From Hydrogenophaga taeniospiralis (lineage in GTDB: Bacteria > Pseudomonadota > Gammaproteobacteria > Burkholderiales > Burkholderiaceae_C), in assembly GCF_020510445.1 (NCBI RefSeq), contig NZ_JAHBAG010000001.1:88501-152500 (forward strand): 64,000 nucleotides of DNA, read 5' to 3'. A program made the translations under genes and the position numbers. The notes below the pieces were generated by a model. That model ran no database searches and was not told the origin of the DNA. It worked only from the letters and a program-made list of their open reading frames with translations. Shown here piece after piece: positions 6,472 through 64,000 of this stretch. Each line of letters begins with the position of its first letter. Within the stretch, counting starts at the first letter, position 1.

Positions 6472-9381
6472 TCAGTTTGTCTTCATCGGCCGTACGTCCA
6501 CCGCGCAGTACTTGAGTTCGGCGATCTTGCCCACCGGATCGAGCGCGGGGTTGGTCAGCAGGTTGGCCGCGGCTTCGGCGTAGGCGAACGGGATGAAAGC
6601 GGTGTCGCGCGGCATGCCGGCGTCGAACCGCACCGCCAGCGCCACGCCGCCGCGCCGCGAACGCACCTGCGCCGCCTCGCCCGCCACCAGGCCGAGCCGC
6701 GCCGCGGTCTCGGGGTGCAGGCTGACCACCGGGCCGGGCTCCACCGCGTCCAGCACCTGGCTGCGCCGCGTCATGCTGCCGGTGTGCCAGTGTTCGAGCT
6801 GGCGCCCGGTGATGAGCACCAGCGGGTAGTCGGCGTCGGGCGTCTCGGCCGGTGGCGTGAGCGCGGCGGGCACCAGGGTGGCGCGGCCGGTGGGCGTGGG
6901 AAAGCGGTCGGTGAACACCACCGGGCGGCCGGGGTCGCTCTCGTTGTCCACCGGGTAGGTGACGGCGCCTTCGCGCTGCAGCCGCGCCCACGACAGGCCG
7001 GCGATGCTGGGCATGAGCGCGCGCATTTCCTCGAACACGGCGCCGATGCCGTGGCCCGCATCCGCGCCGGCCGTGCCATCGGGCGCCACGTCGTAGGCCC
7101 AGCCCAGGCCGAGGCGGCGCGCGAGCTGCTCGGTGATCCAGGCGTCGGCCCGCGCCTCGCCCGGGGCCGGCACCGCCTTGCGGCCGAGCTGCACGCAGCG
7201 GTCGGTGTTGGTCACGCTGCCGGTCTTCTCAGGCCAGGCGGTGGCGGGCAGCACCACGTCGGCCAGGCTGGCGGTCTCGGTCAGGAAGATGTCCTGCACC
7301 ACCAGGTGGTCCAGCCGCGCCAGGGCCTCGCGGGCGTGGTGGGCGTCGGGGTCGCTCATGGCGGGGTTTTCGCCCTGGATCAGCATGGCGCGGATCTGGC
7401 CGTCATAAGCCGCGTTGACGATCTCCACCACGGTCAGGCCGGGCTCGCTGCCCAGCGTGCCGGCGGGCACGCCCCAGAGCCGCTCGGCTTTCTCGCGCGC
7501 GGCGGGTTCGGAGACGCGGTGGTAGTCGGGCAGCACCATGGGGATCAGGCCGGCGTCGCTCGCGCCCTGCACGTTGTTCTGCCCGCGCAGGGGGTGCAGG
7601 CCGGTGCCGGGGCGGCCGATCTGGCCGGTGATGAGCGAGAGCGCGATCAGGCAGCGCGCGTTGTCGGTGCCGTGGGTGTGCTGGCTGATGCCCATGCCCC
7701 AGAGGATCATGGCGCTCTGGGCCGTGGCGTAGGCGCGCGCCACCTCGCGCAGCGTGGCCGCATCGATGCCGCACACCGGGGCCATGGCTTCGGGGCTGAA
7801 GTCGGCCACATGGGCCTTGAGCAGCGCGAAGTCCAGCGTGTGCTGCTCAACATAGGCGGTGTTGGCCAGACCCTCGAAGATGATGGTGTGCAGCAGCGCG
7901 TTGAGCAGGGCCACGTCGGTGCCCGCCTTGAAGCCCAGGTGTTTCCAGGCCTGGCGCGCCAGCTCGGTGCGGCGCGGGTCGATCAGCACCAGCTTCATGC
8001 CGCGTTGCCTGATCGCGTTCTTGATCCAGGTCGCGCCCACCGGGTGGTTCTGCGCCGGGTTGGCGCCGATGATGAGCACCAGGTCGGCGTGCACCACGTC
8101 GCGCAGCGGGTTGGTGACCACCGCCGAGCCCAGGCCTTCCATCAGCGCGGCCACGCTGGAGGCGTGGCACAGGCGGGTGCAGTGGTCCACGTTGTGCGTG
8201 CCAAACGCGCTGCGGATCAGCTTCTGGAACAGGTAGGCCTCTTCGTTCGTGCCCTTGGCCGAACCGAAACCCGCTACCGGCCCCAGACGGCCACGCGCGG
8301 GAGTGCTGGCCATGGCCCGGCGCAGGCCGGTGGCGGCGGCGTCCAGCGCCTCGTCCCAGGTGGCTTCGCGGAACAGTTCGCGCCAGTCGCGCTGCATCAC
8401 GCTGGCCGGGTCCTTGGGCACGTCGGCGCGGCGGATCAGCGGGCGCGTGAGGCGCTCGGGGCTGTGCGCGTAGTCAAAGCCGAAGCGCCCTTTCACGCAG
8501 AGCCGCCCTTCGTTGGCCGGACCCGCCTTGCCCTCCACGTGTTCGATCTTGCCGTTGCTCACGTGGTAGGTCATCTGGCAGCCGACGCCGCAGAACGGGC
8601 AGACCGAATCCACCCGCTGTTGCGAGGCTTTGGCGTAGGCGCCGTTGGCGGGGGCGATGGCGCCCGTGGGGCAGGCCTGCACACATTCACCGCAGGCCAC
8701 GCAGGTGCTCGCACCCATGGGGTCGTTCTGGTCGAACACGATCTGCGCGTGGCCGCCCCGGAAAGCCAACCCCAGCACGTCATTGCCCTGTGTCTCGCGG
8801 CAGGCGCGGATGCAGCGCGTGCACTGGATGCAGGCGTCGAGGTTCACCGTCATGGCCGGGTGAGAAGTGTCCCTGCCCCCACGCTCCACCGCTGGAAGCG
8901 GGTCGCTGCCCCCCGAGGGGGCTGCCCCGCCTTGGGGCGGCCCGGCGGCGGGGCCGTTGTACCCGACAAAGGGCTGGGACCGGGCCGGGAAGCGCTCCGG
9001 CCGCGCGCTGGCCACGCCGGCCCAGTGCGCCAGCTCGCTGTCGTGCTTGAGCGCCGTGGTGTCGGGCGCGTCGGCCAGCAGCAGTTCCAGCACCGTTTTC
9101 TGCGCCGCGGCGGCGCGCGGGCTGTCGGTGTTGACCGCCATGCCGGGCTGCGGCGCGCGGCAGCACGAGGGCGCGAGCACGCGTTCGCCCGCCACCTCGA
9201 CCACGCAGGCGCGGCAGTTGCCGGGGCTGCGCAGGCCGTCCTTGTGGCACAGGTGCGGGATCGCGATGCCCACGCGCTGCGCCACTTTCAGAATGCTCTC
9301 GCCCGGCGCGGCCTCCACCGGCCGGCCGTTGAGCGTGAAGGCGACGGGCGCCATGCCCTGTGGCAGATCGCGGGCGTTCAT
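6472..9381 (-). CDS. fdsA: NAD-dependent formate dehydrogenase, molybdenum alpha subunit
   Basis: Catalytic subunit (969 residues) oxidising formate to CO2 at a bis-molybdopterin guanine dinucleotide centre. Order: N-terminal [2Fe-2S] ferredoxin domain (C45, C56, C59 and C73/C74); two [4Fe-4S] ferredoxin motifs (CIQCTRCIRAC, CVACGECVQACP); the [4Fe-4S] motif CPFCGVGC opening the molybdopterin domain; the CTRLCH motif containing the molybdenum-ligand Cys and the adjacent His; and a molydopterin dinucleotide-binding C-terminal domain ending near VDVRPMKTN. The ATG at 9381 overlaps the stop of the fused diaphorase gene (ATGA), so the two are translationally coupled. Between the [2Fe-2S] domain and the ferredoxin motifs, about residues 142-170 are encoded by a GC-rich interspersed repeat. 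No fdsC/fdhD-type sulfur-transfer gene or fdsD is next to it. Confidence 0.93.
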   Translation of the reverse strand: MNARDLPQGMAPVAFTLNGRPVEAAPGESILKVAQRVGIAIPHLCHKDGLRSPGNCRACVVEVAGERVLAPSCCRAPQPGMAVNTDSPRAAAAQKTVLELLLADAPDTTALKHDSELAHWAGVASARPERFPARSQPFVGYNGPAAGPPQGGAAPSGGSDPLPAVERGGRDTSHPAMTVNLDACIQCTRCIRACRETQGNDVLGLAFRGGHAQIVFDQNDPMGASTCVACGECVQACPTGAIAPANGAYAKASQQRVDSVCPFCGVGCQMTYHVSNGKIEHVEGKAGPANEGRLCVKGRFGFDYAHSPERLTRPLIRRADVPKDPASVMQRDWRELFREATWDEALDAAATGLRRAMASTPARGRLGPVAGFGSAKGTNEEAYLFQKLIRSAFGTHNVDHCTRLCHASSVAALMEGLGSAVVTNPLRDVVHADLVLIIGANPAQNHPVGATWIKNAIRQRGMKLVLIDPRRTELARQAWKHLGFKAGTDVALLNALLHTIIFEGLANTAYVEQHTLDFALLKAHVADFSPEAMAPVCGIDAATLREVARAYATAQSAMILWGMGISQHTHGTDNARCLIALSLITGQIGRPGTGLHPLRGQNNVQGASDAGLIPMVLPDYHRVSEPAAREKAERLWGVPAGTLGSEPGLTVVEIVNAAYDGQIRAMLIQGENPAMSDPDAHHAREALARLDHLVVQDIFLTETASLADVVLPATAWPEKTGSVTNTDRCVQLGRKAVPAPGEARADAWITEQLARRLGLGWAYDVAPDGTAGADAGHGIGAVFEEMRALMPSIAGLSWARLQREGAVTYPVDNESDPGRPVVFTDRFPTPTGRATLVPAALTPPAETPDADYPLVLITGRQLEHWHTGSMTRRSQVLDAVEPGPVVSLHPETAARLGLVAGEAAQVRSRRGGVALAVRFDAGMPRDTAFIPFAYAEAAANLLTNPALDPVGKIAELKYCAVDVRPMKTN
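8874..8956 (+). repeat. GC-rich repeat family A, copy 2, inside fdsA
   Basis: CCCCCACGCTCCACCGCTGG then GCTGCCCCCCGAGGGGG and CCTTGGGGCGGCCCGGCGGC. In fdsA it is read as AAGPPQGGAAPSGGSDPLPA and the following VERGGR. Confidence 0.7.
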
Positions 9382-12333: not shown

Positions 12334-13026
12334 TCAGGTGGGGTTTCGCTGCACACCCGCCGGCAGGCGGGCCGCCGCCTCCCAGGCGCCGGAGCGGAAC
12401 CAGGCGTCGCCGTCGAGGTAGGCCCGCAGCATGGGCAGGGCGTCGTGGCCCCAGAACACGCGGCCGTCCACCACCAGCGCGGGCACGCCGAACAGGCCGA
12501 GCGCGAGCGCTGCGTCGGTGTTGTCGCGCAGGCGCTGCTTCATGGGCACGCTGTCCGGCGCGGCCCAGGGCTTCTGGCGCTGGGCCATGTGGTCCTGCAG
12601 CAGGGTCTGCAGCGCGGCCAGACGCACCGGGTCGGTGGCGTTCTGCCCGCCGCGCCAGACGTGGTGGAACAGCAAACCGGTCACGTAGCGGTTGGTCTCG
12701 CCCGGGGCGTCGTCGGTGGCGGTGCACAGGCCCAGGCGCAGCAGCGCCAGCGGGTTGAACGGGTGCGCGGCCGGCAGGTCCAGCGGCACGCCGTGCTGCT
12801 GCGCGAGCCAGCCCACCTGGCGGTAGGTCCAGTCGCGCTTGGCCGGAATTTCGGCCGGCCCGAGCTGGCCGTGGGCCTGCAGCAGCGCGGCAAACAGCAC
12901 CGGCCTGTAGCGCACCCGCACGCTCAGGCCCATGAGCGCTTCGGGCAGGCGCTCGAAAGCGAGGTAAGCATAGGGCGAGATCGGGTCGTACCAGAAGCCG
13001 ATGTCGTGCAGGGTGTCGGTGCTCAT
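12334..13026 (-). CDS. 2-hydroxychromene-2-carboxylate isomerase-like protein (DsbA fold, GST kappa-like)
   Basis: Protein of 230 residues with the DsbA/GST-kappa fold. The N-terminus FWYDPISPYAYLAFERL matches the glutathione-dependent isomerase family (NahD-like), with the active-site Ser in the SPYAY segment where DsbA has Cys. The C-terminal GLFGVPALVVDGRVFWGHD is the cis-Pro region of the fold plus the WGxD motif of the family. In naphthalene degraders such enzymes isomerise 2-hydroxychromene-2-carboxylate; in organisms without that pathway the substrate is unknown. It is the last gene of the minus-strand run and converges with the fds regulator 21 bases away. Confidence 0.8.
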   Translation of the reverse strand: MSTDTLHDIGFWYDPISPYAYLAFERLPEALMGLSVRVRYRPVLFAALLQAHGQLGPAEIPAKRDWTYRQVGWLAQQHGVPLDLPAAHPFNPLALLRLGLCTATDDAPGETNRYVTGLLFHHVWRGGQNATDPVRLAALQTLLQDHMAQRQKPWAAPDSVPMKQRLRDNTDAALALGLFGVPALVVDGRVFWGHDALPMLRAYLDGDAWFRSGAWEAAARLPAGVQRNPT

Positions 13027-23600: not shown

Positions 23601-25328
<1,728 letters not shown>

Positions 25329-25430
25329 GGGTGTGTCTCCTCCGAAGGCGGTCGCCCGGATCGGGCCGGGCCTGAAAGCGCAAGCATAGAAGCTCGGGCC
25401 GTGCACCGGTTGCCAGAATGGTTGCAAATC

Positions 25431-25448
25431 GTGCCTAAACTGAGGCAC
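25431..25448. promoter_or_regulatory. Short inverted repeat between acyl-CoA synthetase and AraC gene
   Basis: GTGCCT (25431-25436) and AGGCAC (25443-25448) are perfect 6-base arms separated by 6 bases, 10 bases before the AraC-gene ATG. It may be an autoregulatory site; evidence is symmetry and place only. Confidence 0.25.
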
Positions 25449-25458
25449 ACTGACCGCC

Positions 25459-26526
25459 ATGCCAAGCCCCAACCCGACACCCCTGGCCCCACGCAGTGAG
25501 CTGCGCACGGCACGCGCCGCAACGCCCATGGCCTTTGTGCGGGCCATCGTGCGGGCGTACCGGCTCCGCGGCATGGACCCGGCGCCCGCGCTGGCGCAGG
25601 CACAGATCGCGCCAGCCCTTTTGCAGCAACGGGTGGGCCACATCACCGCCGCGCAAATGGAGGCCGTGTCGGGCGCGGCCATGCGCGAACTGAACGACGA
25701 AGCCCTGGGCTGGTTTGCCCGGCCCTTGCCCTGGGGCAGCTACGGCATGCTCGCGCGCGCCTCGCTCTCGGCCCCCACGCTGGGCGCCGCGCTCAAGCGC
25801 TGGTGCCGCCACCACGGCCTGCTCACCCCCGACGTCACGCTCGCCGTGACCACCAGCGGCGACGTGGCCAGCATCGGCCTCACCGAACACCGCCCGCCCG
25901 GTGGCGATGGCAGCCTGCGCGAGTTCTGTTTCGTCTCGGTGCTGCGCAACAGCCTGGGCCTGGCCTGCTGGTTCGTGGACTCGCGCATCCCGCTGCTGGG
26001 CGCGAGCTTTCCATTTGCCGCGCCACCGCACGCCGAGGCCTACCGCGTGCTGTTCGACGGCCCGACGGTGTTTGACGCACCCGAGGCCGCCATCCGCTTC
26101 GACGCGCGCTACCTCGCCCTGCCCATCAAACGCGACGAAGCCGCGATGAACCAGATGCTGCAGCGCGCCCTGCCAATCCAGGTGCGCCCCTACCGACGCG
26201 ACCGCCTGCTGGTGCAGCGCGTGCGCCAAGTGCTGATGACCCAGCCGCTGGACGCGCACAACGCCAACGACCTCGCGGCCCTGCTCAACACCTCGGCGCG
26301 CACCCTGCACCGGCAGCTGAAAGACGAGGGCGCCACGCTGCAGGCGTTGAAAGACGAGGTGCGCCGCGACCGCGCGCTCGACCTGCTGCAGCGCACCACC
26401 CGCCCCATCAAACAGGTGGCCGAAGCGGCCGGGTTTCAGAACGAGAAGAGCTTCATCCGCGCGTTCAAGGGCTGGACGGGGGTGGCGCCGGGGGATTTTC
26501 GGAGCCGGACCCCACCCTTGGCCTGA
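25459..26526 (+). CDS. AraC-family transcriptional regulator
   Basis: Regulator of 355 residues. The N-terminal part is the arabinose-binding-like domain of AraC proteins (PF12625 type: [20 protein letters not shown]...). The C-terminal 100 residues carry two helix-turn-helices: [20 protein letters not shown] and [20 protein letters not shown] with [13 protein letters not shown]. It is divergent from the acyl-CoA synthetase/liuB operon and is followed after 52 bases by a CaiC-like ligase, so it may control either. The ligand is unknown. A degenerate copy of its last HTH codons lies at 28.97 kb. Confidence 0.9.
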
Positions 26527-26578
26527 TCTGCAACCCCGATGGCGCAGCCATGACCACCACCCTGTCTAGACTGCCCAC

Positions 26579-28210
26579 ATGATCGCCATCGACGACGACA
26601 CCACCATCGGCCAGGCCTTCTTCGAGGCCTGCGACCGCTACGCCGGCCACAGCCTGCTGGCCGTGCCCGCCAACGCCGCCCGCAGCTACGACCCCGCCGG
26701 CCGCGACATCAGCTACAGCGACGCGGCCACCGTGGTGCGCACGCTGATGGCCGCGTACCGCTCGGCTGGCTACGGCTTGGGCCACCGCGTGGGCCTGTTC
26801 CTGGAAAGCCGGCCCGAGCACCTGCTGCACAAGCTCGCGCTCAACGCGCTGGGCGTGTGCATCGTGCCGATCAACCCGGACCACCGGCCGCGCGAACTGG
26901 CCTATGTGGTGGACCACGCGCGGCTGGACCTGATGGTGGCGCTGACCGCGCGGGCCGACGCGGTGCGGGAGGCGCTGGCCCTGACCCGCCACCGGCCCGC
27001 CGTGGCGTGGCTGGAGGAACTGGACACCCAGACCCTGACACCGCCGCCCACCGCGGCCCAGCCCGGTGAACCGGTTGGCGACACGCCCGCCAGCATCCTC
27101 TACACCTCGGGCACCACGGGCCAGCCCAAGGGCTGCGTGCTCTCGCACACCTACGAGCTGGCCGCCGGCCACTGGTATGCCACCCAGGGCGGCCTGGGGG
27201 CGGTGCGCGAAGGCGTTGAGCGCCTCTACAACCCGCTGCCGCTGTTCCATGTGAACGCGTCCATCCTGTCGTTCTACTGCATGCTGCTCAGCGGAGGCTG
27301 CCAGGTGCAGACCGACCGTTTCCAGCCCGGCCGCTGGTGGACCGAGGTGGTCGAGAGCCGCGCCACCATCGTGCACTACCTCGGCGTGGTGGTGCCCATG
27401 CTGCTCAACCAGCCGGTGAGCGATCTGGAGCGCGCGCACCCAGTGCGCTTTGGCTACGGCGCCGGCGTCGAGCCCCAGCTGCACGCGACATTCGAGGCGC
27501 GCTATGGCTTCCCGCTGCTCGAACTCTGGGGCATGACCGAGATGGTGCGGCCCCTGTGCGACTGCCACGAACCGCGCCAGGTCGGCACGCGGGCCTTCGG
27601 CCGCGCACGCCCGGGCCTGGACGCCTGCGTGATGGACGAGGCCGGCCAGGTGCTGCCCGACGGCACGCCGGGCGAGCTGGTGGTCCGCCACTCCGAAGCC
27701 ACGCCCCGGCGGCACTTCTTCAGCGGCTACCTCGACAACCCGCAGGCCACGGCCGAGGCCTGGCGCGGCGGCTGGTTCCACACCGGCGACATCGTGAGCC
27801 GGGGCGCCGATGGCATGTTCCATTTCGTGGACCGCCGCAAGAACATCATCCGCCGCTCGGGCGAAAACATCGCCGCCGCCGAGGTCGAGGCCCTGCTGCT
27901 CACCCACCCCTGGGTCGCCAACGCGGCGGTGATGGCCCTGCCCGACGAGGTGCGCGAAGAAGAGGTGCTGGCCTGCGTGGTGCTGAAAGACCGCGCCGGC
28001 CACGAAACGGCGGAGACGGCGCGCGCGCTCTTTGACTTCTGCCACCAGCAACTGGCCTACTACAAGGCGCCCGGCTGGCTCTGGTTTGCGGCCGAGATCC
28101 CCACCACCGGCACCCAGAAGATCCAGAAACACCGCATCTTTCCCGAGGGCACCGACCCCCGCACCCTGCCCGGCATGCACGACCTGCGGCCGTTCAAGAA
28201 ACGCCACTGA
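26579..28210 (+). CDS. AMP-binding acyl-CoA ligase, CaiC-like
   Basis: Adenylate-forming ligase of 543 residues, closest in style to crotonobetaine/carnitine-CoA ligases and related ATP-dependent acyl-CoA ligases. Motifs: ILYTSGTTGQPKGCVLSH, the motif LWGMTEMVRPLC, HTGDIVSRGADGMFHFVDR followed by RKNIIRRSGENI, and the C-terminal lysine in TGTQKIQKHRIF. It lies between an AraC regulator and a GST gene, 20 bases before the latter. The true substrate is not evident; no carnitine transport or CaiB-type gene is near. Confidence 0.87.
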   Translation: MIAIDDDTTIGQAFFEACDRYAGHSLLAVPANAARSYDPAGRDISYSDAATVVRTLMAAYRSAGYGLGHRVGLFLESRPEHLLHKLALNALGVCIVPINPDHRPRELAYVVDHARLDLMVALTARADAVREALALTRHRPAVAWLEELDTQTLTPPPTAAQPGEPVGDTPASILYTSGTTGQPKGCVLSHTYELAAGHWYATQGGLGAVREGVERLYNPLPLFHVNASILSFYCMLLSGGCQVQTDRFQPGRWWTEVVESRATIVHYLGVVVPMLLNQPVSDLERAHPVRFGYGAGVEPQLHATFEARYGFPLLELWGMTEMVRPLCDCHEPRQVGTRAFGRARPGLDACVMDEAGQVLPDGTPGELVVRHSEATPRRHFFSGYLDNPQATAEAWRGGWFHTGDIVSRGADGMFHFVDRRKNIIRRSGENIAAAEVEALLLTHPWVANAAVMALPDEVREEEVLACVVLKDRAGHETAETARALFDFCHQQLAYYKAPGWLWFAAEIPTTGTQKIQKHRIFPEGTDPRTLPGMHDLRPFKKRH

Positions 28211-28230
28211 ACCCGGAACCCGCCAACCCC

Positions 28231-28899
28231 ATGATCGTTTTGCACCACTGCGTCAGCGCCCGGTCTTTGCGTCCCCTGTGGATGCTGGAAGAGCTGGGCC
28301 TGCCCTACGAACTGCGCATGCTGCCCTTTCCGCCGCGCGTGCACGCCCGGCCCTACCTGGACCTGAACCCGCTGGGCACCGTGCCCCTGCTGGAAGACGG
28401 CGCCACCCGCATGACCGAGTCGGCCGCGATGTGCCACTACCTCGCCGCGCGCCACAGCCCGCGCGTGCTGGACGTGCCCGTCGACGATCCAGCCTATGGC
28501 AGCTACCTGAACTGGCTGCACATGAGCGACGCCACGCTCACCTTCCCGCAGACGCTGGTGCTGCGCTACACCCACTTCGAACCGCCCGAGCGCCTGCAGC
28601 CCCAGGTGGCCGCCGACTACGCCCGCTGGTTCCTGGCCCGTCTGCGCGCGGTGGACGCCGCCCTGCAGCACAACGAGCACCTGTGCGCCGGCCGCTTCAC
28701 GGCCGCCGACGTGACCGTGGGCTACGCGCTGGTGCTCGCCCGCCACCTGGACCTGGATGCCCAGTTCACGCCGGCGGTGGCGGCCTACTGGCAGCGCCTG
28801 CAGGACCGCCCAGCGTTCCAGCGCGCCCTGCGCGTGGAACGCGATGCGGCCCTGGCCCAGCGGGTGGACCCCACGCCTTCTCCTGACTTGCGGGTCTGA
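28231..28899 (+). CDS. Glutathione S-transferase family protein
   Basis: GST of 222 residues. The thioredoxin-like N-terminal domain has MIVLHHCVSARSLRPLWMLE (Ser as likely glutathione-activating residue), the cis-Pro TVPLLED and the glutathione gamma-Glu contact ES in RMTESAAMC. The C-terminal helical domain includes the Asp in RFTAADVTVGYAL, the hydrophobic-staple N-capping box. It is 20 bases after the CaiC-like ligase and probably co-expressed. Substrate unknown. Confidence 0.88.
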   Translation: MIVLHHCVSARSLRPLWMLEELGLPYELRMLPFPPRVHARPYLDLNPLGTVPLLEDGATRMTESAAMCHYLAARHSPRVLDVPVDDPAYGSYLNWLHMSDATLTFPQTLVLRYTHFEPPERLQPQVAADYARWFLARLRAVDAALQHNEHLCAGRFTAADVTVGYALVLARHLDLDAQFTPAVAAYWQRLQDRPAFQRALRVERDAALAQRVDPTPSPDLRV

Positions 28900-28965
28900 T
28901 GGTTCGGGGCACCGGGATCGACCCAGTCGAAGGCCCACAGGACGGTCGGGGGTCAGGTCATCAGG

Positions 28966-29022
28966 ATCAGAAGAGCTTCATCCGCGCGTCCAAAGGCTGA
29001 ACGGGTAACGCCGGGGGGGGGG
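28966..29022 (+). pseudogene. Degenerate scrap of an AraC-family gene 3' end
   Basis: The bases from about 28966 closely match the last helix-turn-helix codons of the AraC gene at 26.4-26.5 kb. They read DQKSFIRASKG then a TGA, against [12 protein letters not shown] in the intact gene, and then run into a ten-G tract. Only about 55 bases align. It sits at the left edge of the low-GC island. It may be a scar of duplication or of a lost regulator. The rest of 28900-29118 shows nothing else recognisable. Confidence 0.65.
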
Positions 29023-29118
29023 TGACGGGGCAGGGTAAGTCGGGAGATCGAAGTGATTTGGCACGTTGTAGTTCCTTTGCCGGGGGCAGCGAAGGTCGCA
29101 GAGCAAGATCGACCAAGA

Positions 29119-30534
29119 TCAGATCGATTGGTCTGGCTTAGACCGCATTGGGTGCCACTGGCCCCACTCGTACCACCCCATTCCACCCGTTCGCAACATA
29201 TTCGAGCCTGGAGATATTCCATCTGGCGTGCTCATGCCAAGAAGCACGAAGATCAACCGCTCCAACAAAATCGCCAGGTGCCACTCAGCAACCGCCACGA
29301 CATCGAGCGAGACGAAAGTGCTTCGCCCGTGTGCAAGCGCATGACGGACATCTCTCAATCCCCGCTCTTTTCCTGCACCCAGAATGGGCCAAAGGTCCGC
29401 ACAGCTCATCGCCGGATATACCCGAAAAAATGCACTGACCTTGTCCCGAACACTCGCACCACTGTTCACGGTCTTGATGAATCCTTCCAGGCGAGCTGAA
29501 ATCTCTGAGGCGTATTCGCCGTTTTCAGCGACCACAGTCGCGTTCAACTGCCCGAGAAGTTCCGCGATGGCGTTGTCTGTAACTGCAGGGCTTCGCAGCG
29601 TTTGGTCCCGTTTCCAAGCGGATTCGATCACCCGTTCCAGTGCGGAGAACATGAACAGAAAGCGATCACCGATCCTCGACTTGGTATGGGGATTGACTGC
29701 GACCAACACGTGGCGCACCAGCGAGCGAGTTTCCTCGCTGGTCTTCCCATACGCGTGTGCCAAGCCTGTAGCGCATTCCACGAAGACTTGGGGTTTAACA
29801 ACATATTTGCCGCGGTCCTCGCGCGCAGATGGCGTCACATTCGGATCAAGGGGATTAATCCACGTAGAAACAGTAGCTCCGTCTGTGTACGTCCAGCCGT
29901 GTAGGGTCACGGCTTGACGAAACAGAACCGACAGGACCTCAAGCGATCTCCTGAACTTTGCAACCACCAGGTCGATGTCGCTTGAAGCATCCGGCGGCAA
30001 AGCTGCTACCGCACAAAAACCAGCGACCACCGTCGCTCCTGGAATCTCCGCGTCTCGGTGGTAAACGGTCATCCAGTCCGACACGAATTTCGTCTCACCG
30101 AAATCCGGCAGATCCATCGAAAACAGCTCCGTCGATTGTGATCTGTCGCCAAAGTGAACAAAGTTGGACTCTGACCGCAGGTAGGAAATGGGGGCCAGAT
30201 GGAAGCGAATCTCCCTATTGGCATCCTGAGAGCGGCACTGCAGCGTCAGTCTCGAAACGTGGGATATATCAATAGCAGCCAGACCGATCAGGCCTTTCGG
30301 GGAAACTGGAAATTGGCGCCAGTGCACTCCATTCATGCTGATGGAAAAGGCGCCACTTTTCCCCATCAACGTGCACGGATTGCTTGGGGGTTCTCCAGTA
30401 AGGTGCCGTGAGGGCACCGCCAAGTAGATCGACGCTTTTTGGCCACCTACGTGCGGCAGTTGGACTTCGCAGTAGGCGGGAAGCGTGACCCCGTCGGAAC
30501 CTATCAACTCAGCATCGAAATCGAACTTCATCAT
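29119..30534 (-). CDS. HEPN-domain protein, ApeA-like, candidate phage-defence RNase
   Basis: A 471-residue protein not assigned with certainty. The C-terminal third looks like a HEPN domain: helix RFLFMFSALERVIESAWKRD (about 291-310) and the Rx4H motif RHALAH (R397, H402), followed by a long helix AVAEWHLAILLERLIFVLLG. This pairing is that of the ApeA-like HEPN group, whose founder is an abortive phage-defence protein. The N-terminal 250 residues are beta-rich and may be a sensor. Base composition is visibly lower in GC than all neighbours and codon use differs, suggesting transfer. It stands alone, with no methylase, antitoxin or partner gene. ATGATG gives two possible starts (30534 or 30531). 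Function is inference. Confidence 0.72.
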   Translation of the reverse strand: MMKFDFDAELIGSDGVTLPAYCEVQLPHVGGQKASIYLAVPSRHLTGEPPSNPCTLMGKSGAFSISMNGVHWRQFPVSPKGLIGLAAIDISHVSRLTLQCRSQDANREIRFHLAPISYLRSESNFVHFGDRSQSTELFSMDLPDFGETKFVSDWMTVYHRDAEIPGATVVAGFCAVAALPPDASSDIDLVVAKFRRSLEVLSVLFRQAVTLHGWTYTDGATVSTWINPLDPNVTPSAREDRGKYVVKPQVFVECATGLAHAYGKTSEETRSLVRHVLVAVNPHTKSRIGDRFLFMFSALERVIESAWKRDQTLRSPAVTDNAIAELLGQLNATVVAENGEYASEISARLEGFIKTVNSGASVRDKVSAFFRVYPAMSCADLWPILGAGKERGLRDVRHALAHGRSTFVSLDVVAVAEWHLAILLERLIFVLLGMSTPDGISPGSNMLRTGGMGWYEWGQWHPMRSKPDQSI

Positions 30535-30624
30535 TCCTGGCCTTAGCTTAGAACTGGTACTGCCTCGTATGTCGCGTGCTAGCCAACCGGCGCTCTCAGA
30601 TAGATGACAGCAGAGACAGTCTCC

Positions 30625-31533
30625 TCAACGCCCCGCAGGCAGAACGTCCACCCCGCTGCCCGAAGGCCCCGGAATCCCCCGCCCCTCCACATTCGGTGAC
30701 GTCACCGGCGAGCCATTGACCCACGGTCTCTCTGGCGCCGCTGCGGGCGCAGCCGCTGGCTTCGGTGCGGCGGGCGGTGTCATCGGCGCAGGCGCGGGAG
30801 CGGGCGCCGCTTTCCCAAGCCCCAGCTGGTTCACCAGGCTCTGCACCGCCGCATCCACCTGCACTTTCAGCGACTCGCGCGCAGCAGCGGCGTTGTCGTC
30901 GTTCAGGCGCGGGCCGATCAGCAGCGCGGGCGCGGGCACGCGCTGGGCCGTGGAGACGGTGGCCTCGCCGAGCACGGCGCCGAAGGTGCTGGGCACCAGC
31001 AGGTCGACGCGCAGCGAGGCGTGGGCTACCGACTCGGTGCCCAGGCGCACGATGCTGCGCTGCGCGATGCCCAGACCGAAGAAGCCTTCGCGGGTGGCCC
31101 AGATGCTGTCGGCCGACGGCGCGCCCGAGATGAGCAGCACATGGTCGGTCGGCGTCTTGAGTTCCTTCAGTTCCTTGAGCGCTTCCTCGCGGCGGGTGGC
31201 GGTGATGGTGGCACGCTGCACGCTGGAGAAACGCCCGGAAGCCTTGAGCAGTTCGACGGTGCGGTTTTCGAGCTGCTCCTTGTAGCCCCAGTCGGGCACG
31301 AAGGCTTCGCCCAGCTCGTTGTTGAACAAGGTGGTGCCGCGCCAGGAGAGGCGCAGCGTAGTGCCGATGGTGCTGATGACGGTGATCGACTTGCCCCGCA
31401 GGCGCGCCTGCACGCTGGTGGTTTCGACGGTGGAACAGGCGGTGAGGCCGAGGCCGGCGAGCGGCAGGATGGGCCAGAGTGGCAGGGCGGCGCTGAGGCC
31501 CAGGAGTTGGCGGCGGGTGAAGTGGATAGGCAT
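30625..31533 (-). CDS. Hypothetical lipoprotein with Pro/Ala-rich tail
   Basis: A 302-residue exported protein. The N-terminus MPIHFTRRQLLGLSAALPLW has a twin-arginine-like RRQLLG, then a hydrophobic stretch ending in the lipobox LTAC (Cys about residue 33), so it should be an anchored lipoprotein. The middle 180 residues (STVETTSVQARLRGKSITVI onward) match no family I can name; a short TATRREEALKELKEL helix is visible. From about residue 240 it becomes a low-complexity tail of Ala and Pro. It is downstream of the low-GC island and converges with nothing. Function unknown. Confidence 0.75.
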   Translation of the reverse strand: MPIHFTRRQLLGLSAALPLWPILPLAGLGLTACSTVETTSVQARLRGKSITVISTIGTTLRLSWRGTTLFNNELGEAFVPDWGYKEQLENRTVELLKASGRFSSVQRATITATRREEALKELKELKTPTDHVLLISGAPSADSIWATREGFFGLGIAQRSIVRLGTESVAHASLRVDLLVPSTFGAVLGEATVSTAQRVPAPALLIGPRLNDDNAAAARESLKVQVDAAVQSLVNQLGLGKAAPAPAPAPMTPPAAPKPAAAPAAAPERPWVNGSPVTSPNVEGRGIPGPSGSGVDVLPAGR

Positions 31534-31542
31534 GGGGCGTTT

Positions 31543-32199
31543 TTACCGCAGTGCGGGCAAGGCCCGCGCCAGCTCGTCCATGTGGCGAAACACCCGCGCC
31601 ACGGGCAGGCCGTCGAACGCGCGGCCGTGGCCGTGCTGGCAGTAGCCCCAGACGGTGGCGCCGGCGGCCAGGCCGGCCTGGGCGCCGGTGGCGGTGTCTT
31701 CGATCACCAGGCATCGCGACGGGTCGGCGCCCAGGTGGGCGGCGGCGGCCAGGTAGACATCGGGCGCGGGCTTGGAGCGTGGCATGTCGTGGCCGCTGAA
31801 GATGCGGTCTTCGAAGTACGGCGCCATGCCGGCCATGCCGATCTGCATCACGACCTTGGGCCGGTCGGCGCCGGAGGCGCAGGCGATGCGGCCTTTGGCG
31901 TGCGCATGCGCGGCGATGACCGCGTCGAGCGCACCGGCCACGGTCTGCAGCTCGGCGCGCAGGCGCTGATCGCGCCGCGCATAGAAGGCGCGCATCCAGT
32001 CGTCGGTGAGCGGTCGGCCGGTCTCAGCCTCGATGCGCTCGCGCTCGTCGCGCACGGCCTTGCCGATGAAGATGCGTTCGCACTCCGGCTGGCTGAGCGC
32101 CCAGCCGGCCTCGTTGAGCATCTGGCGCAACACGCCGTTGGTGATGGGCTCGCTGTCCACCAACACGCCGTCGCAATCGAAAAGAACCGCTTCGAACAT
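31543..32199 (-). CDS. HAD superfamily hydrolase, subfamily IA
   Basis: Phosphatase of 218 residues of the beta-phosphoglucomutase/GmhB-like HAD IA group. Motif I is FDCDGVLVDSEP with the nucleophile and acid/base Asp, motif II is IACASGAD, motif III Lys is in RSKPAPDVYL, and motif IV is CLVIEDTATGAQAG. The cap insertion between motif I and II is helical, as in sugar-phosphate phosphatases. Start 32199 follows the YchJ-like gene stop by 6 bases. Substrate unknown. Confidence 0.9.
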   Translation of the reverse strand: MFEAVLFDCDGVLVDSEPITNGVLRQMLNEAGWALSQPECERIFIGKAVRDERERIEAETGRPLTDDWMRAFYARRDQRLRAELQTVAGALDAVIAAHAHAKGRIACASGADRPKVVMQIGMAGMAPYFEDRIFSGHDMPRSKPAPDVYLAAAAHLGADPSRCLVIEDTATGAQAGLAAGATVWGYCQHGHGRAFDGLPVARVFRHMDELARALPALR

Positions 32200-32204
32200 C
32201 GCAC

Positions 32205-32609
32205 TCACTTCAGATCTCCATCCACATAAAACCAGCGCCCAGCCTCGCGCACGAAGCGGCTGCGCTCGTGCAGGCGCTGCCCACGGCCTGCCACGCGCGA
32301 GCGGGCGACGAACTCGACCTCGGCGTGGTCGGCGTCGATCACGCGGTGCGATCGCACGTCCAGCCCCAGCCATTTCACGCCCTCTTCCAGCGTCAGGTCG
32401 GCCGGGCGGGTGCTGGCGTGCCAACTGGCGGCGAGGTGGTCCACACGCCCCAGCACGAAGGCGCTGTAGCGCGAGCGCATGAGGCTTTCGGCGTCGGGCG
32501 CCGGGGTGTCGTGGTCGATGTAGCGCCCGCAGCAGGCGTCGAACGCGCAGGCTTTGCCCCGCGCGTCGGTCCGGCCACAGGGGCAGGCGCTCACAGGCAC
32601 TCTGCTCAT
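32205..32609 (-). CDS. YchJ-like family protein (SEC-C type cysteine motif)
   Basis: A 134-residue protein with the N-terminal zinc-binding cysteines CPCGR...CCGRYID and the YchJ core LMRSRYSAFVLGRVDHLAAS and VKWLGLDVRSHRVIDADHAE. YchJ/UPF0225 proteins are of unknown function with a cystatin-like fold. Its start overlaps the stop of the rhodanese gene (ATGA), and its stop precedes the HAD gene by 6 bases, so the three form an operon. Confidence 0.88.
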   Translation of the reverse strand: MSRVPVSACPCGRTDARGKACAFDACCGRYIDHDTPAPDAESLMRSRYSAFVLGRVDHLAASWHASTRPADLTLEEGVKWLGLDVRSHRVIDADHAEVEFVARSRVAGRGQRLHERSRFVREAGRWFYVDGDLK

Positions 32610-33040
32610 GCGGGCTTGCGCGCCGCGTGCCGGGCCTTGTGGGCTTCGAGCGTTTCGGTGGGGGCGCCCTGCTTCACCCACTCGGTGAAGCCGCCGTCGA
32701 TGTGGGCCACGTTGTCCATGCCCATGTCTTTCAGCGCCTTGGTGGCCAGCGCGCTGCGCCAGCCCGCGCCGCAGAACAGCACAAATTCTTTGCTTTCATC
32801 GCCGAACACGGGCTTGAAATACGGCGACGCCGGGTCCACCCAGAACTCCAGCATGCCGCGCGGCGCGTGCACCGCGCCCGGTGCCGTGCCTTCGCGCTCG
32901 AGCTCGCGCACGTCGCGGATGTCCACCAGCTGCAGCGTCGGGTCGCGCTCCAGCCGTTCGCGCACCTGGGCCACGCTGTAGGTGGTGATCTGCGCCGTGG
33001 CTTCGTCCACGAGCGCGCGGAATCCTTTGGTGATGGGCAT
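32606..33040 (-). CDS. Rhodanese-like domain protein
   Basis: Single rhodanese domain, 144 residues. It has LQLVDIRDVRELEREG, the loop VLFCGAGWRSALA with the active-site Cys, and the C-terminal DNVAHIDGGFTEWVKQG. The Cys loop GAGWR has the six-residue size of sulfurtransferase rhodaneses. Start 33040 follows GGAG. The stop overlaps the YchJ-like start. It probably carries out sulfur transfer, partner unknown. Confidence 0.9.
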   Translation of the reverse strand: MPITKGFRALVDEATAQITTYSVAQVRERLERDPTLQLVDIRDVRELEREGTAPGAVHAPRGMLEFWVDPASPYFKPVFGDESKEFVLFCGAGWRSALATKALKDMGMDNVAHIDGGFTEWVKQGAPTETLEAHKARHAARKPA

Positions 33041-33211
33041 GGGTGTGGTCTCCTGTGTCTTCCGTCTGGCGGCCATTATCCGTGCGCCACCGGCCCGGCC
33101 CGCCGCCCCATACGCCAGATTCCATGAGCGCGCACGGGCAGGGCTTTTGCGCGGCGGTGTTCAATAGCGGCTCTGTCACCCACCCTGCCCCGCCACCCAC
33201 AAGGACCTGCC

Positions 33212-33916
33212 GTGAACGCTCTGTCTGCCTTCCCCATCACCCAGAAATGGCCCGCGCAATTCCCCGATCGCCTGCAACTGTATTCACTGCCCACGCCCAA
33301 CGGCGTGAAGGTGTCCATCATGCTGGAGGAAACCGGCCTGCCTTATGAGCCACACCTGGTGAGCTTCGACACCAACGACCAGATGTCGCCGGCCTTCCTC
33401 TCGCTCAACCCCAACAACAAGATCCCCGCGATCCTCGACCCCAAGGGACCGGGCGGCCGGCCGCTGGCGCTGTTCGAATCGGGCGCGATCCTGATCTACC
33501 TGGCCGAGAAGACCGACCGGTTCCTGCCGCAGGACCCCGCCGCGCGCTACGAGACCCTGCAGTGGCTGATGTTCCAGATGGGCGGGGTGGGGCCCATGTT
33601 TGGCCAGCTCGGCTTCTTCCACAAGTTTGCCGGCGCCGCCTACGAAGACAAGCGTCCCCGCGACCGCTACGTGGCCGAAAGCCGGCGCCTGCTCGGCGTG
33701 CTGAACCAGCGCATGGCCGGGCGCCACTGGATCATGGGCGATGCCTACACCATCGCCGACATCGCCATCTGGCCCTGGGTGCGCAACCTGGTCGGCTACT
33801 ACGGCGCGGGCGAGCTGGTGGGTTTCAAGGACTTCCCGGAACTCGCGCGCGTGCTCGCGGCCTTCGAAGCCCGCCCGGCGGTGCAACGCGGACTCACCAT
33901 CCCCGCACGGGGCTGA
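33212..33916 (+). CDS. Glutathione S-transferase, Ure2/YfcG-like
   Basis: A 234-residue GST with the nu-class N-terminus LYSLPTPNGVKVSIMLEETG (Thr-Pro-Asn activating region as in YfcG), the cis-Pro NNKIPAILDP, and the ES contact FESGAILIYLAEK. The C-terminal IADIAIWPWVRNL matches YfcG, a disulfide reductase. It is divergent from the rhodanese operon. Its 3' end overlaps the reading frame of a trkH remnant on the other strand. Confidence 0.9.
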   Translation: MNALSAFPITQKWPAQFPDRLQLYSLPTPNGVKVSIMLEETGLPYEPHLVSFDTNDQMSPAFLSLNPNNKIPAILDPKGPGGRPLALFESGAILIYLAEKTDRFLPQDPAARYETLQWLMFQMGGVGPMFGQLGFFHKFAGAAYEDKRPRDRYVAESRRLLGVLNQRMAGRHWIMGDAYTIADIAIWPWVRNLVGYYGAGELVGFKDFPELARVLAAFEARPAVQRGLTIPARG

Positions 33917-34070
33917 GGCAAGGCCGCGTCTGCTTCCGCCAGAAACCGGGCGTGAACAGGACCAGGAAAGACAACATCTCCAGCCGGCCCAGCAGCATGG
34001 CCAGGGCGCACACCCAGGTCTGGAAATCGCTCAGGCCGATGGTGGTGCCGGCAGGCGGCGCGGGGGGCGC
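33894..34070 (-). pseudogene. trkH: 3' remnant of a trkH potassium-transporter gene
   Basis: The minus strand reads 58 codons ending at a TGA (33894-33896). The part GLSDFQTWVCALAMLLGRLE and then VLFTPGFWRK is the last membrane helix and C-terminus of TrkH/KtrB-type potassium channels. Nothing of the first 400 or so residues is present; it starts directly after the acyl-CoA dehydrogenase stop and stays in the same frame as that gene. It is a gene scrap left by deletion or rearrangement, not an active transporter. Confidence 0.7.
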
Positions 34071-35198
34071 TCAGAGCGCTCGCTGAATGATGATCTTTTG
34101 AACGTCCGAGGTGCCTTCGTAGATCTGGCACACGCGCACGTCGCGCCAGATGCGCTCCAGCGGAAAGTCGTTCACGTAGCCGTAGCCGCCCAGGGTCTGG
34201 ATGGCGGCGGAGCAGACCTGCTCTGCCGTCTCGCTGGCGAAGAGCTTGGCCATGGCGGCTTCCTTCAGGCAGGGCTGGCCGGCATCGCGCAGGGCGGCGG
34301 CGTGCCAGATCAGTTGGCGCGCGGCTTCGAGCTTCGTGGCGCAGTCGGCCAGGCGGAAACCCACGGCCTGGTGGTTGAAGATGGCGGTGCCAAAGCTCTG
34401 GCGCTCCTTGGCGTAGGCGATCGCCACCTCCAGCGCGCTGCGCGCCATGCCCACGCTCTGCGCCGCGATGCCGATGCGCCCGCCCTCGAGCGCGGAGAGC
34501 GCGATCTTGTAGCCCTCGCCTTCCTGGCCGATCAGGTTCTCGGCCGGGATGCGGCAGTTGTCGAAGTTGATCTGCGCGGTGTCGCTGCTGTGCTGGCCCA
34601 CCTTGTCTTCCAGCCGCGCGACCACGTAGCCCGGGTTGTCGGTGGGCACCATGAAGGCGCTCATGCCCTTCTTGCCCGCGCCCTTGTCGGTCACGGCGAT
34701 CACCACCGCGGCCTGTCCGTTCTTGCCCGAGGTGATGAACTGCTTGACGCCGTTGATGACGTACTCGTCGCCCTCGCGCACCGCCGTGGTCCGCAGGCCG
34801 GAGGCGTCGGAGCCCACGTGCGGCTCGGTCAGACAGAAGGCGCCCAGGATATCGCCGCGCGCCGCCGGCACCAGCCACTGCCGCTGCTGCGCCGGTGTTC
34901 CGTACTTCATGAGGATGGCGTTGTAGGGGCAGTTGGTCACGCTGATGGCGGTGCTGGTGCCGCCGTCGCCGGCCGCGATCTCTTCCAGCACCAGCGCCAG
35001 CGTCAGGTAGTCCAGCCCCGCGCCGCCCAGTTCTTCGGGCACGCAGATGCCATACGCCCCCAGCTCGGCCAGGCCCCGGTGCGCCGCTGCGGGAAACAGG
35101 TGCTCCTTGTCCCACTGCGCGGCGTTGGGCCAGAGCTGTTCCTGGGCAAAGGCGCGCACGGCGTCGCGGATCATCACGTGGTCTTGGGTCAGCAGCAT
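34071..35198 (-). CDS. Acyl-CoA dehydrogenase (short/branched-chain type)
   Basis: FAD enzyme of 375 residues. Segments: FCLTEPHVGSDASGLRTTA and FITSGKNGQAAVV around the flavin, and the C-terminal catalytic-base motif CQIYEGTSDVQKIIIQRAL with Glu in the usual YEGT position of short- and short/branched-chain enzymes. It is therefore distinct from the isovaleryl-CoA dehydrogenase in the same run. It probably acts on butyryl- or 2-methylbutyryl-CoA. It is the last gene of the run, 35 bases after the SDR gene. Confidence 0.9.
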   Translation of the reverse strand: MLLTQDHVMIRDAVRAFAQEQLWPNAAQWDKEHLFPAAAHRGLAELGAYGICVPEELGGAGLDYLTLALVLEEIAAGDGGTSTAISVTNCPYNAILMKYGTPAQQRQWLVPAARGDILGAFCLTEPHVGSDASGLRTTAVREGDEYVINGVKQFITSGKNGQAAVVIAVTDKGAGKKGMSAFMVPTDNPGYVVARLEDKVGQHSSDTAQINFDNCRIPAENLIGQEGEGYKIALSALEGGRIGIAAQSVGMARSALEVAIAYAKERQSFGTAIFNHQAVGFRLADCATKLEAARQLIWHAAALRDAGQPCLKEAAMAKLFASETAEQVCSAAIQTLGGYGYVNDFPLERIWRDVRVCQIYEGTSDVQKIIIQRAL

Positions 35199-58393: not shown

Positions 58394-60088
58394 ATGAACG
58401 CACCCTGGCTGTCCCACTACCCTCCCGGTGTTCCGCACGACGTCGAGCCCGAACAGGTCCGCTCGTTGGCCGTGCTGCTCGAAGAATCGCTGCGCAAGAA
58501 CGCGCGCCGCCCCGTATCGGTCTGCATGGAACGCTGGATGTCCTATGGCGAACTGGACCACCACAGCGCCGCCCTGGGCGCCTGGCTGCAGGCGCGCGGA
58601 CTGCCTGCGGGCGCACGGGTTGCCGTCATGCTGCCCAACGTGCCGCAGTTTCTGGTGGCGATGGCGGCCATCGTGCGGGCGGGCTACACCGTCGTCAACG
58701 TGAACCCGCTGTACACCGCCCGCGAGCTTGAACACCAGCTCAAAGACAGCGGTGCAGAAGCCATCGTCATTCTGGAGAACTTCGCCACCACGCTGGAAGC
58801 CGTCATCGACCACACCGCCGTCCGGCATGTGGTGGTGGCCAGCCTGGGCGACCTGCTGGGCTTCTGGTATGGCCGCTGGCTCAGCTTCGCGGTGCGCCAC
58901 CTGGCGAAGATGGTACCCGCCTACAAGCTGGCGAAGAGCGGTCCGCTGGGCCCCCGCACCATTGTCAGCTTTCGCCATGCGCTGGCAGAGGGAGCCACAC
59001 TCACGCTCAAACCCAGTACGGCAACCCTCGATTCGGTGGCTTTCCTGCAATACACCGGTGGCACCACCGGCTTGTCGAAGGGCGCAGTGCTGACGCATCG
59101 CAACATCGTTGCCGCCGTCCTGCAAGCCGATGCCTGGTTCCAACCAGCCCTGGCGCGCGTGGGAGAAATACACAACACCAACGCCGTCGCGGCCCTACCG
59201 CTGTATCACATCTTCGCACTCACCTTGAGCCTGTTGACCATGCGCTGGGGCGCCCATATGACGCTGATCCCGAACCCACGCGACGTCGCTCAGTTCGTGG
59301 GGACACTCAAGCGCCGTCCGTTCCACCTCCTGCCCGCCGTCAACACCCTGTTCAACGCACTGTTGCAGAACCCACAGTTTCGCCAGCTCGACTTTTCCAG
59401 TCTGGCGTTGTCCCAGGCCGGTGGCATGGCAGCGTCCGAGGCCACGGCCAGAGACTGGCTGGCGATCACGGGCTGCCCCATGATCGAAGGCTGGGGCATG
59501 AGCGAGACCTGTGCCATCGGCACCAACAACCCTGTGACCAACTGCGAGTTCAGTGGCACCATCGGCCTGCCGCTACCGGGCATCACCATCGCCATCAAGG
59601 ACGACGAAGGAAACGACCTCCCCCAAGGCACAGCCGGTGAGATCTGCATTCGGGGACCCAACGTGATGACCGGTTACCACAACCAACCCGAAGAATCCGC
59701 CCGTGCGTTCACACCCGATGGCTTCATGCGCACCGGCGACGTGGGCATCATGGACCCGCGCGGATACACCCGCATCGTGGATCGCAAGAAGGACATGATT
59801 CTGGTTTCGGGCTTCAACGTCTTCCCCAACGAACTGGAAAACGTCATTGCCTTGTGCCCGGGCGTGCTGGAATGCGCCGCCATCGGCGTCGAAGACGCCA
59901 AACAAGGGGAGGCGATCAAGGTTTTCGTGGTCCGAAGCGACGCCAGCTTGCGTGAGGAAGACGTGGCCCGCTACTGCCACGACAACCTCACCGGCTACAA
60001 GCGGCCCAAATACATCGAGTTCAGGGATGAATTGCCAAAAACAAACGTCGGCAAGATCCTGCGACGTGCCCTGCGGGCGGTGAACTGA
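58394..60088 (+). CDS. fadD: Long-chain fatty acid-CoA ligase, FadD-like
   Basis: A 564-residue adenylate-forming ligase. Markers: YTARELEHQLKDSGAEAIVI, the P-loop YTGGTTGLSKGAVLTHRNI, GWGMSETCAIGTNNPV, the MRTGDVGIMDPRGYTRIVDR motif and the C-terminal KTNVGKILRRALR. The pattern ENFATTLE with FVPFYKL-like MVPAYKLAKSG matches FadD. It activates long-chain fatty acids for beta-oxidation. Start 58394. The following metallo-hydrolase starts 20 bases after its stop. Confidence 0.92.
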   Translation: MNAPWLSHYPPGVPHDVEPEQVRSLAVLLEESLRKNARRPVSVCMERWMSYGELDHHSAALGAWLQARGLPAGARVAVMLPNVPQFLVAMAAIVRAGYTVVNVNPLYTARELEHQLKDSGAEAIVILENFATTLEAVIDHTAVRHVVVASLGDLLGFWYGRWLSFAVRHLAKMVPAYKLAKSGPLGPRTIVSFRHALAEGATLTLKPSTATLDSVAFLQYTGGTTGLSKGAVLTHRNIVAAVLQADAWFQPALARVGEIHNTNAVAALPLYHIFALTLSLLTMRWGAHMTLIPNPRDVAQFVGTLKRRPFHLLPAVNTLFNALLQNPQFRQLDFSSLALSQAGGMAASEATARDWLAITGCPMIEGWGMSETCAIGTNNPVTNCEFSGTIGLPLPGITIAIKDDEGNDLPQGTAGEICIRGPNVMTGYHNQPEESARAFTPDGFMRTGDVGIMDPRGYTRIVDRKKDMILVSGFNVFPNELENVIALCPGVLECAAIGVEDAKQGEAIKVFVVRSDASLREEDVARYCHDNLTGYKRPKYIEFRDELPKTNVGKILRRALRAVN

Positions 60089-60108
60089 ATGCTCGCCATG
60101 GCTTGCAC

Positions 60109-61158: not shown

Positions 61159-61272
61159 GCCTGACGATGACCTACTTTCACACGGGAACCCGCACTATCA
61201 TCGGCGCAAAGGCGTTTCACTGTCCTGTTCGGGATGGGAAGGAGTGGTACCACCTCGCTATGGTCGTCAGGC
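61159..61272 (-). rRNA. rrf: 5S ribosomal RNA
   Basis: Minus-strand reading starts GCCTGACGACCATAGCGAGG and ends with GTAGGTCATCGTCAGGC, whose ends pair. The central CCATCCCGAACAGGACAGTG is the expected loop B/C region. It follows 23S by about 160 bases and is last in the operon. Confidence 0.95.
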
Positions 61273-61433
61273 ATAACTTGTTGTCCTGGCTGTGCACGCG
61301 CACAGCCTGAACGAATTCATAGAGTATCGAATCAGCTATTTTGATTGCTGCCAACGATCATGGTCAGATCGTTTGATCATGACCACAAGGGCATAAACAT
61401 GACATCCACTCTGACGACAAACGTCAAAGTTAT
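61273..61433 (-). other. 23S-5S spacer
   Basis: About 160 bases between the 3' end of 23S and 5S. It is AT-rich relative to the rest of the window. I see no tRNA in it. Confidence 0.7.

Positions 61434-64000
<2,567 letters not shown>

Follow-up and report, generated by a model that had tools for sequence, protein, structure and literature searches.

ApeA, which has a HEPN domain, is counted among the anti-phage systems (PMC7699616, PMC10952713), and in PMC10952713 it is placed, together with PD-T4-2, PD-T4-5 and PD-T7-3, under PF18735. ApeA-NTD1 is described as a domain of about 300 aa formed for the most part by beta strands, and HEPN RNases as proteins carrying an Rx4-6H motif in which the residue after R is polar, mostly N, D or H; many HEPN families also have a conserved acidic residue upstream of this motif, typically within Ex3[KR] (PMC3710099).

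Here we compare with these systems a gene of Hydrogenophaga taeniospiralis, found in a stretch of 64,000 nucleotides (contig NZ_JAHBAG010000001.1, positions 88,501 to 152,500) that is referred to throughout as the window. The gene is an open reading frame (ORF) of 471 aa with an ATG start, at 29119..30534 on the minus strand. We put at roughly 70% the probability that it encodes a horizontally acquired, stand-alone abortive-infection protein, a single gene built like ApeA from an N-terminal sensor and a C-terminal HEPN RNase.

Results

HEPN assignment of the C-terminal region

The original prediction had read the C-terminus of this protein as a HEPN domain with an R397-x4-H402 motif; its residue numbering is correct and the motif is present as stated. 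When the window protein was compared with Pfam, PADLOC and NCBIfam at E values up to 10, no family was matched, the curated HEPN, Abi and defence models included, and since no curated model matched, the HEPN relation was tested stepwise through the profiles of a sister family (A2) and of ApeA. The family profile used for this (A1) is an alignment of 40 of the 89 protein-database entries retrieved with the single-sequence query. Against Pfam, the 40 members gave weak matches only, to 15 families, of which the commonest was B_lactamase-like_C (8/40, best 0.035); HEPN_RiboL-PSP (1/40, 0.073) and HEPN_MAE_28990 (1/40, 0.19) were among the others. Against PADLOC the matches, to five families including RTasHEPN (5/40, 0.0063) and CARF_HEPN (2/40, 0.0078), were weak as well, and neither set was taken as proof.

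A1 and A2 align over 415 columns, nearly their full length, in the profile comparison, with 99.3% (E 1e-20). Of 10 A2 members, 4 match HEPN_RiboL-PSP (best 9.6e-9) and 4 match HEPN_Apea (best 0.011, under the cut-off in the one member shown), and one A2 entry carries the source name 'HEPN domain-containing protein'. Sequence searches of the PDB returned nothing credible for the window protein (best E 0.55) or A1 (0.17); with A2, A3 or one ApeA protein as query, nothing was matched up to an E of 1.

For the comparison with ApeA, 17 ApeA-type proteins were assembled: six from the 11 loci of the model search (one of these six, L043, lies below the Pfam cut-off), the protein of locus L009, and 10 of 69 plasmid records that are related to one ApeA protein and were included without a profile scan of their own. 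Left out were L035 (the same gene as L009), L038 (internal stop), L040 and L044 (pieces) and L042 (short). An enlarged query, made of A1, A2 and a distantly related Vibrio protein, matched the 17 proteins at 96.2% (E 2.6e-9, score 79.9) over residues 105-435, while 30 column-shuffled ApeA profiles reached at most 0.2% with scores of at most 17.5, and the reversed profile 0.1%. A1 alone gave 93.7% against the same 17 proteins, over about residues 175-437, and 71.6% (E 3.5e-5) against 7 ApeA proteins; A2 alone matched these 7 weakly, at 26.8%. With the C-terminal part, which comprises a HEPN region of about residues 271-440 (29215..29724, minus strand), the comparison with ApeA gave 95.4% (E 1.8e-8).

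The predicted RNase motif R397-x4-H402 lies at 29329..29346 on the minus strand. In the alignment of the enlarged query, R397 and H402 fall on the R and H of ApeA, which are aligned in all 17 ApeA-type sequences. Among the 95 listed family entries, position 397 is R in 93 and position 402 is H in 94, the remainder being gaps, and residue 398 is N in 43, H in 40 and D in 10, with two gaps; the family thus shows an Rx4-6H motif with a polar N, D or H after the arginine. Upstream of the motif, the acidic residue E300 (29635..29637, minus strand) is E in 94 of the 95 entries, with one gap, and aligns with acidic residues of ApeA; in the window protein an R directly follows E300, and the exact Ex3[KR] spacing was not seen. 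Profile comparisons and motif conservation, and not a direct model match, therefore support the window protein as a HEPN protein, and the HEPN claim of the original prediction stands on the comparison with the 17 ApeA-type proteins and its controls.

Relation to ApeA and the N-terminal region

In a midpoint-rooted tree of 65 sequences, restricted to those longer than 430 aa, 48 family-side and 17 ApeA-type sequences fall into separate groups with supports of 0.978 and 0.966. Neither HEPN_Apea (PF18739) nor ApeA_NTD1 (PF18862) has a match above the cut-off in the window protein or in its genome, so that formal ApeA membership fails. By the profile comparisons and the tree, the window protein is a divergent sister of ApeA and not a curated ApeA. 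The description 'ApeA-like' consequently holds as a statement of homology and not as an assignment to the curated ApeA models.

The N-terminal region, residues 1-265 (29740..30534, minus strand), is the proposed sensor. It has no Pfam match, in agreement with the earlier remark that this part resembles nothing nameable. Within it the motif R206-x6-G213-W214 (29893..29919, minus strand) stands out most; its R, G and W are each conserved in 93 of the 95 listed entries, the other two being gaps; the R-x6-GW pattern is present in most members of A2 too. A crude, alignment-averaged propensity profile of the region did not separate alpha from beta, and the beta-rich character first ascribed to it was thus not confirmed.

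Taken alone, residues 1-265 gave 1.3-1.8% against ApeA, with the register unchanged from the full-length alignment; residues 1-180 gave 0.1%. The second half of the region aligns with ApeA only as part of the full-length profile comparison. Given this alignment and the common register, the part adjoining the HEPN domain is probably related to the end of ApeA_NTD1. For the first part, of a hundred or more residues, no relative was detected beyond the family and A2. The earlier suggestion of a new sensor is accordingly borne out only in part: it may apply to this first part, and the second half, which aligns with ApeA in the full-length comparison, falls outside it.

Composition and coding signal

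The gene has a GC content of 0.555, and the 5-kb flanks of the insert that contains it have 0.698 (left) and 0.692 (right). With a codon adaptation index of 0.309 it falls below all of 39 other chosen ORFs of the window, which have a median of 0.694 and a lowest value of 0.513. Four nearby genes have a third-position GC (GC3) of 0.86-0.93; in this gene it is 0.617. These three measures bear out the first reading of a single 471-residue gene with a composition and codon use unlike those on both sides. A promoter scan found none, and the single terminator-like site falls within the gene.

The deepest GC dip of the window is at its right end, because 5S and 23S rRNA genes lie there (61159-64000, minus strand, continuing past the window edge). 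Clear of the rRNA, the lowest 1-kb window is at 29251 (0.558) and the next separate one is 60001-61000 (0.589). This second, milder low-GC coding stretch adjoins the rRNA genes and holds a 315-aa ORF that by eye resembles a metallo-beta-lactamase-fold hydrolase.

Compared with its relatives at loci L002 and L003, the gene differs mostly at third codon positions, with a dN/dS of about 0.23-0.26; by this comparison it is under purifying selection.

A variable site in the genus

Nine stretches from other genomes of the genus (L018-L026) were compared with the window; eight show the site, and in the ninth (genome G040) the contig stops before it. The flanking genes are common to the relatives, and what varies is the stretch between an AraC-type gene (25459-26526) and the gene at 30625-31533, which has no Pfam match and by eye encodes an exported protein. 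In G001 the flanks are 97 bp apart, and the HEPN gene is missing along with the AMP-binding and GST genes found ahead of it in the window. The flanks are 854 bp apart in G020. In G066 and G016 the GST gene is retained and is followed by 1.55 and 1.45 kb, respectively, in which lie a 172-aa ORF and a DUF2846 gene, identified in G066 by a profile match and recognised by eye as the same protein in G016. Both the AMP-binding and the GST gene are present in G047, ahead of 1.9 kb carrying other ORFs, and G007, G013 and G014 hold 2.9-5.2 kb of other DNA. Across the eight relatives, 26527-30624 is thus a variable site of the genus, which may be empty, hold lipoprotein genes or hold several other genes.

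The 3' end of the AraC-type gene recurs in decayed form at 28961..29017, plus strand, 83% identical to 26436-26494 (E 4e-13). A longer alignment reaches a score of 94.5, where 300 letter shuffles gave no more than 62, and this second copy was recovered in a search of its own genome too. It sits 2.5 kb from the intact AraC-type gene, and at its end lies a run of ten G (29013-29022), a possible slippage tract. The presence of this second 3' end suggests that the AMP-binding and GST genes came in, or the AraC gene was duplicated, through recombination at this site.

In relatives like G001 the AraC end adjoins the right-hand gene, from which we infer that the old left edge is at the remnant and that the foreign DNA spans about 29035..30605 (no strand assigned), some 1.57 kb of 55% GC between flanks of 69-70%. 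On the left the remnant extends to 29017-29034, and on the right homology with the relatives resumes at 30606-30660. The low-GC island, first placed at 28966..30600, is therefore real and slightly narrower, since 28961-29017 belongs to the AraC remnant. Between 28700 and 30800 only short or weak repeat pairs were found, none convincing as terminal repeats of the insert. Insertion at a tRNA was set aside, the two tRNA genes lying at 6609-6694 and 12573-12660, away from the edges.

Distribution of the family

Of 67 genomes of the genus, 44 of which have a completeness of at least 90% and a contamination of at most 5%, one carries a full-length copy, namely the genome of the window itself; G066 has a distant C-terminal match elsewhere in its genome (28% identity, residues 338-435). 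In genome samples at order, class and phylum level (399, 369 and 398 genomes), one, none and one distant matches, respectively, were found besides the own genome. A pattern-limited scan of one genome per species over 84,980 species gave five loci. In the protein database, the single-sequence query retrieved at least 89 entries including that of the window, i.e., at least 88 others, and the profile query at least 94; combined, there are at least 95 different entries, or at least 94 besides the window protein. Among the 95 matches listed, the family entries are 31-72% identical to it. A Vibrio alginolyticus plasmid carries one distant relative, with 23% identity over 92% of the query.

The family does not behave as a housekeeping gene at a fixed locus: besides its presence in one genus genome of 67, the site differs in the relatives and the homologous loci have different neighbours. 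Horizontal acquisition is the best explanation of this pattern as read from the genomes compared. A phage origin of the gene was set aside, as searches of phage records and IMG/VR contigs yielded no relative. In titles and the opening lines of abstracts no description of this family was recognised; it has no name to search by.

Neighbourhoods of the relatives and alternative functions

Ten loci were examined: the window, five of the close family (L002-L006) and four of distant relatives (L027, L029, L030 and L031). By profile, defence or toxin-antitoxin genes lie near four of them: a 1635-aa type ISP restriction-modification enzyme and a ParE toxin upstream in L002, a Phd/YefM-PIN pair about 2.3 kb off in L005, DndC (E 5e-94) in L030, and Abi_alpha and SLFN_AlbA_2 in L031, where the HEPN gene itself is a 103-aa remnant beside apparent transposases. 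The other six have no defence neighbour passing the cut-off. Among these, L003 has a PLD-like match below the cut-off, L029 shows no defence neighbour by eye (one neighbour was profile-scanned), and L027, which comes from a plasmid, contains IS elements and a NYN and OST-HTH gene. In this last locus, on the Vibrio alginolyticus plasmid (L027:10853-13350), the distant relative follows the NYN and OST-HTH (LOTUS) gene, possibly as a two-gene RNA-targeting pair; the surroundings are IS-rich and form a metal-resistance region. The window copy is likewise among the six. Its neighbours are metabolic, a local defence island was set aside on that account, and the original view of a stand-alone gene agrees with this arrangement. 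For the proposed check of whether homologues lie in defence islands, the outcome is thus defence or toxin-antitoxin genes near four of the ten loci; as a raw count with no background control, it makes the defence context of the relatives suggestive only.

One alternative, which we consider improbable, is a HEPN toxin held by an unseen partner, either a short antitoxin protein or an AbiF-type RNA antitoxin, and kept by addiction instead of phage sensing. HEPN domains are found in toxins as well as in abortive-infection proteins (PMC3710099), an RNA-regulated AbiF system is on record (PMC12373285), and the toxin-antitoxin genes near L002 and L005 would fit. The partner would, however, have little room, as the gene has 71 bp of insert upstream of it and 84 bp downstream; a partner conserved in the flanks was not seen in the loci compared. 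Neither the 400-bp upstream flanks (window, L002, L003 and L004/L006) nor the 400-bp downstream flanks (the same loci and L005) are common to independent loci, the exception being L004 with L006, which represent one site. With metabolic neighbours, unshared flanks and no Rfam match, i.e., no known RNA element, at 25000-35000, no adjacent conserved antitoxin gene or RNA was found, which leaves a short partner lacking conservation as a possibility. In addition, a conserved N-terminal region of about 265 residues exceeds the needs of a simple toxin.

We judge it just as improbable that this is a HEPN protein of RNA processing or stress, whose physiological role has nothing to do with phages and whose gene was transferred for some other reason. 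The purifying selection seen against L002 and L003 and the metabolic neighbours in the window would suit such a protein. So would L004 and L006, which come from two Nitrosomonas species and have one common site, with a SNF2-type gene downstream (profile in L004) and no defence neighbours recognised. Yet both Nitrosomonas copies are disrupted, split over two reading frames in L004:10001-11418 and over three in L006:10001-11524, so the gene is dispensable there; the very patchy presence, the homology to ApeA and the defence genes that adjoin several relatives argue in the same direction.

Least probable is that the gene is a passenger in decay, foreign DNA that has no function at present. The unameliorated composition, the patchwork site with its decayed gene end and the disrupted Nitrosomonas copies point to this; against it stands a window copy that is full-length and keeps the conserved residues that were checked.

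Discussion

Taking these alternatives into account, a defence function of the gene is likely as judged from its sequence relationships, and we favour the reading of a one-gene, ApeA-like sensor and HEPN RNase. It draws on the conservation of the motif, the profile links between A1 and A2 and to ApeA, the patchy presence, the empty site in G001, the atypical codons, the defence or toxin-antitoxin genes near four of the ten loci and the listing of ApeA as an anti-phage system. Counting against it are the lack of a direct model match, of a defence neighbour in the window and at five of the other loci, and of relatives among phage records and IMG/VR contigs, the values of 1.3-1.8% for the N-terminal region alone against ApeA and of 26.8% for A2 alone against the 7 ApeA proteins, and the remnant in L031. 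Of the one-gene defence module first proposed, the foreign, lone gene, the HEPN motif and the homology to ApeA are borne out by the comparisons, and the defence role is the part that is inferred.

In the uninfected cell, the HEPN domain would be kept inactive by the N-terminal region, probably as a homodimer as in other HEPN RNases. Upon infection, the N-terminal region might meet a signal, whose nature is a guess, and the pair would rearrange; R397 and H402 would then form the RNase site and RNA would be cut, and the infected cell would stop growing or die before phage release. RNase activity, dimerisation, autoinhibition, triggering by phage, the signal and the RNA target are all predicted here from homology.

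More tentatively, and at less than even odds, the family of 95 listed entries may be one-gene immune receptors of a class of their own, alongside ApeA. In such a class the first 100-180 residues would be a differently built sensor, with R206-x6-GW214 in its signal pocket, which would read another infection signal and drive the conserved HEPN RNase.

The Pfam, NCBIfam and PADLOC copies used hold no model for the window protein, and annotation built on them would therefore miss it. The relation described here would add a second, well conserved clade to defence of the ApeA kind, and what such sensors read becomes more testable, as there are two sister clades to compare.

Among known systems, AbiF-type and other Abi HEPN proteins are likewise HEPN proteins implicated in abortive infection (PMC3710099, PMC12373285); the window protein differs in having no Abi family match and no conserved flank as a possible RNA antitoxin. 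RiboL-PSP-type HEPN proteins (PF18735), under which ApeA itself is placed, are matched by 4 of 10 members of A2 and by 1 of 40 of A1, and the RiboL-PSP domain itself was not seen in this family. From ApeA (PF18862 and PF18739) the window family differs in matching neither Pfam model, in an N-terminal part that taken alone is not recognisable as ApeA_NTD1, and in forming a separate clade; the first hundred-plus residues are not recognisably common to the two clades, whereas the HEPN part is and the adjoining N-terminal half probably is. In both cases, single genes encode proteins of similar length and layout, with an N-terminal region of about 270 residues followed by a HEPN domain with its R...H motif, and the two families match collinearly over the HEPN domain and the N-terminal part that adjoins it.
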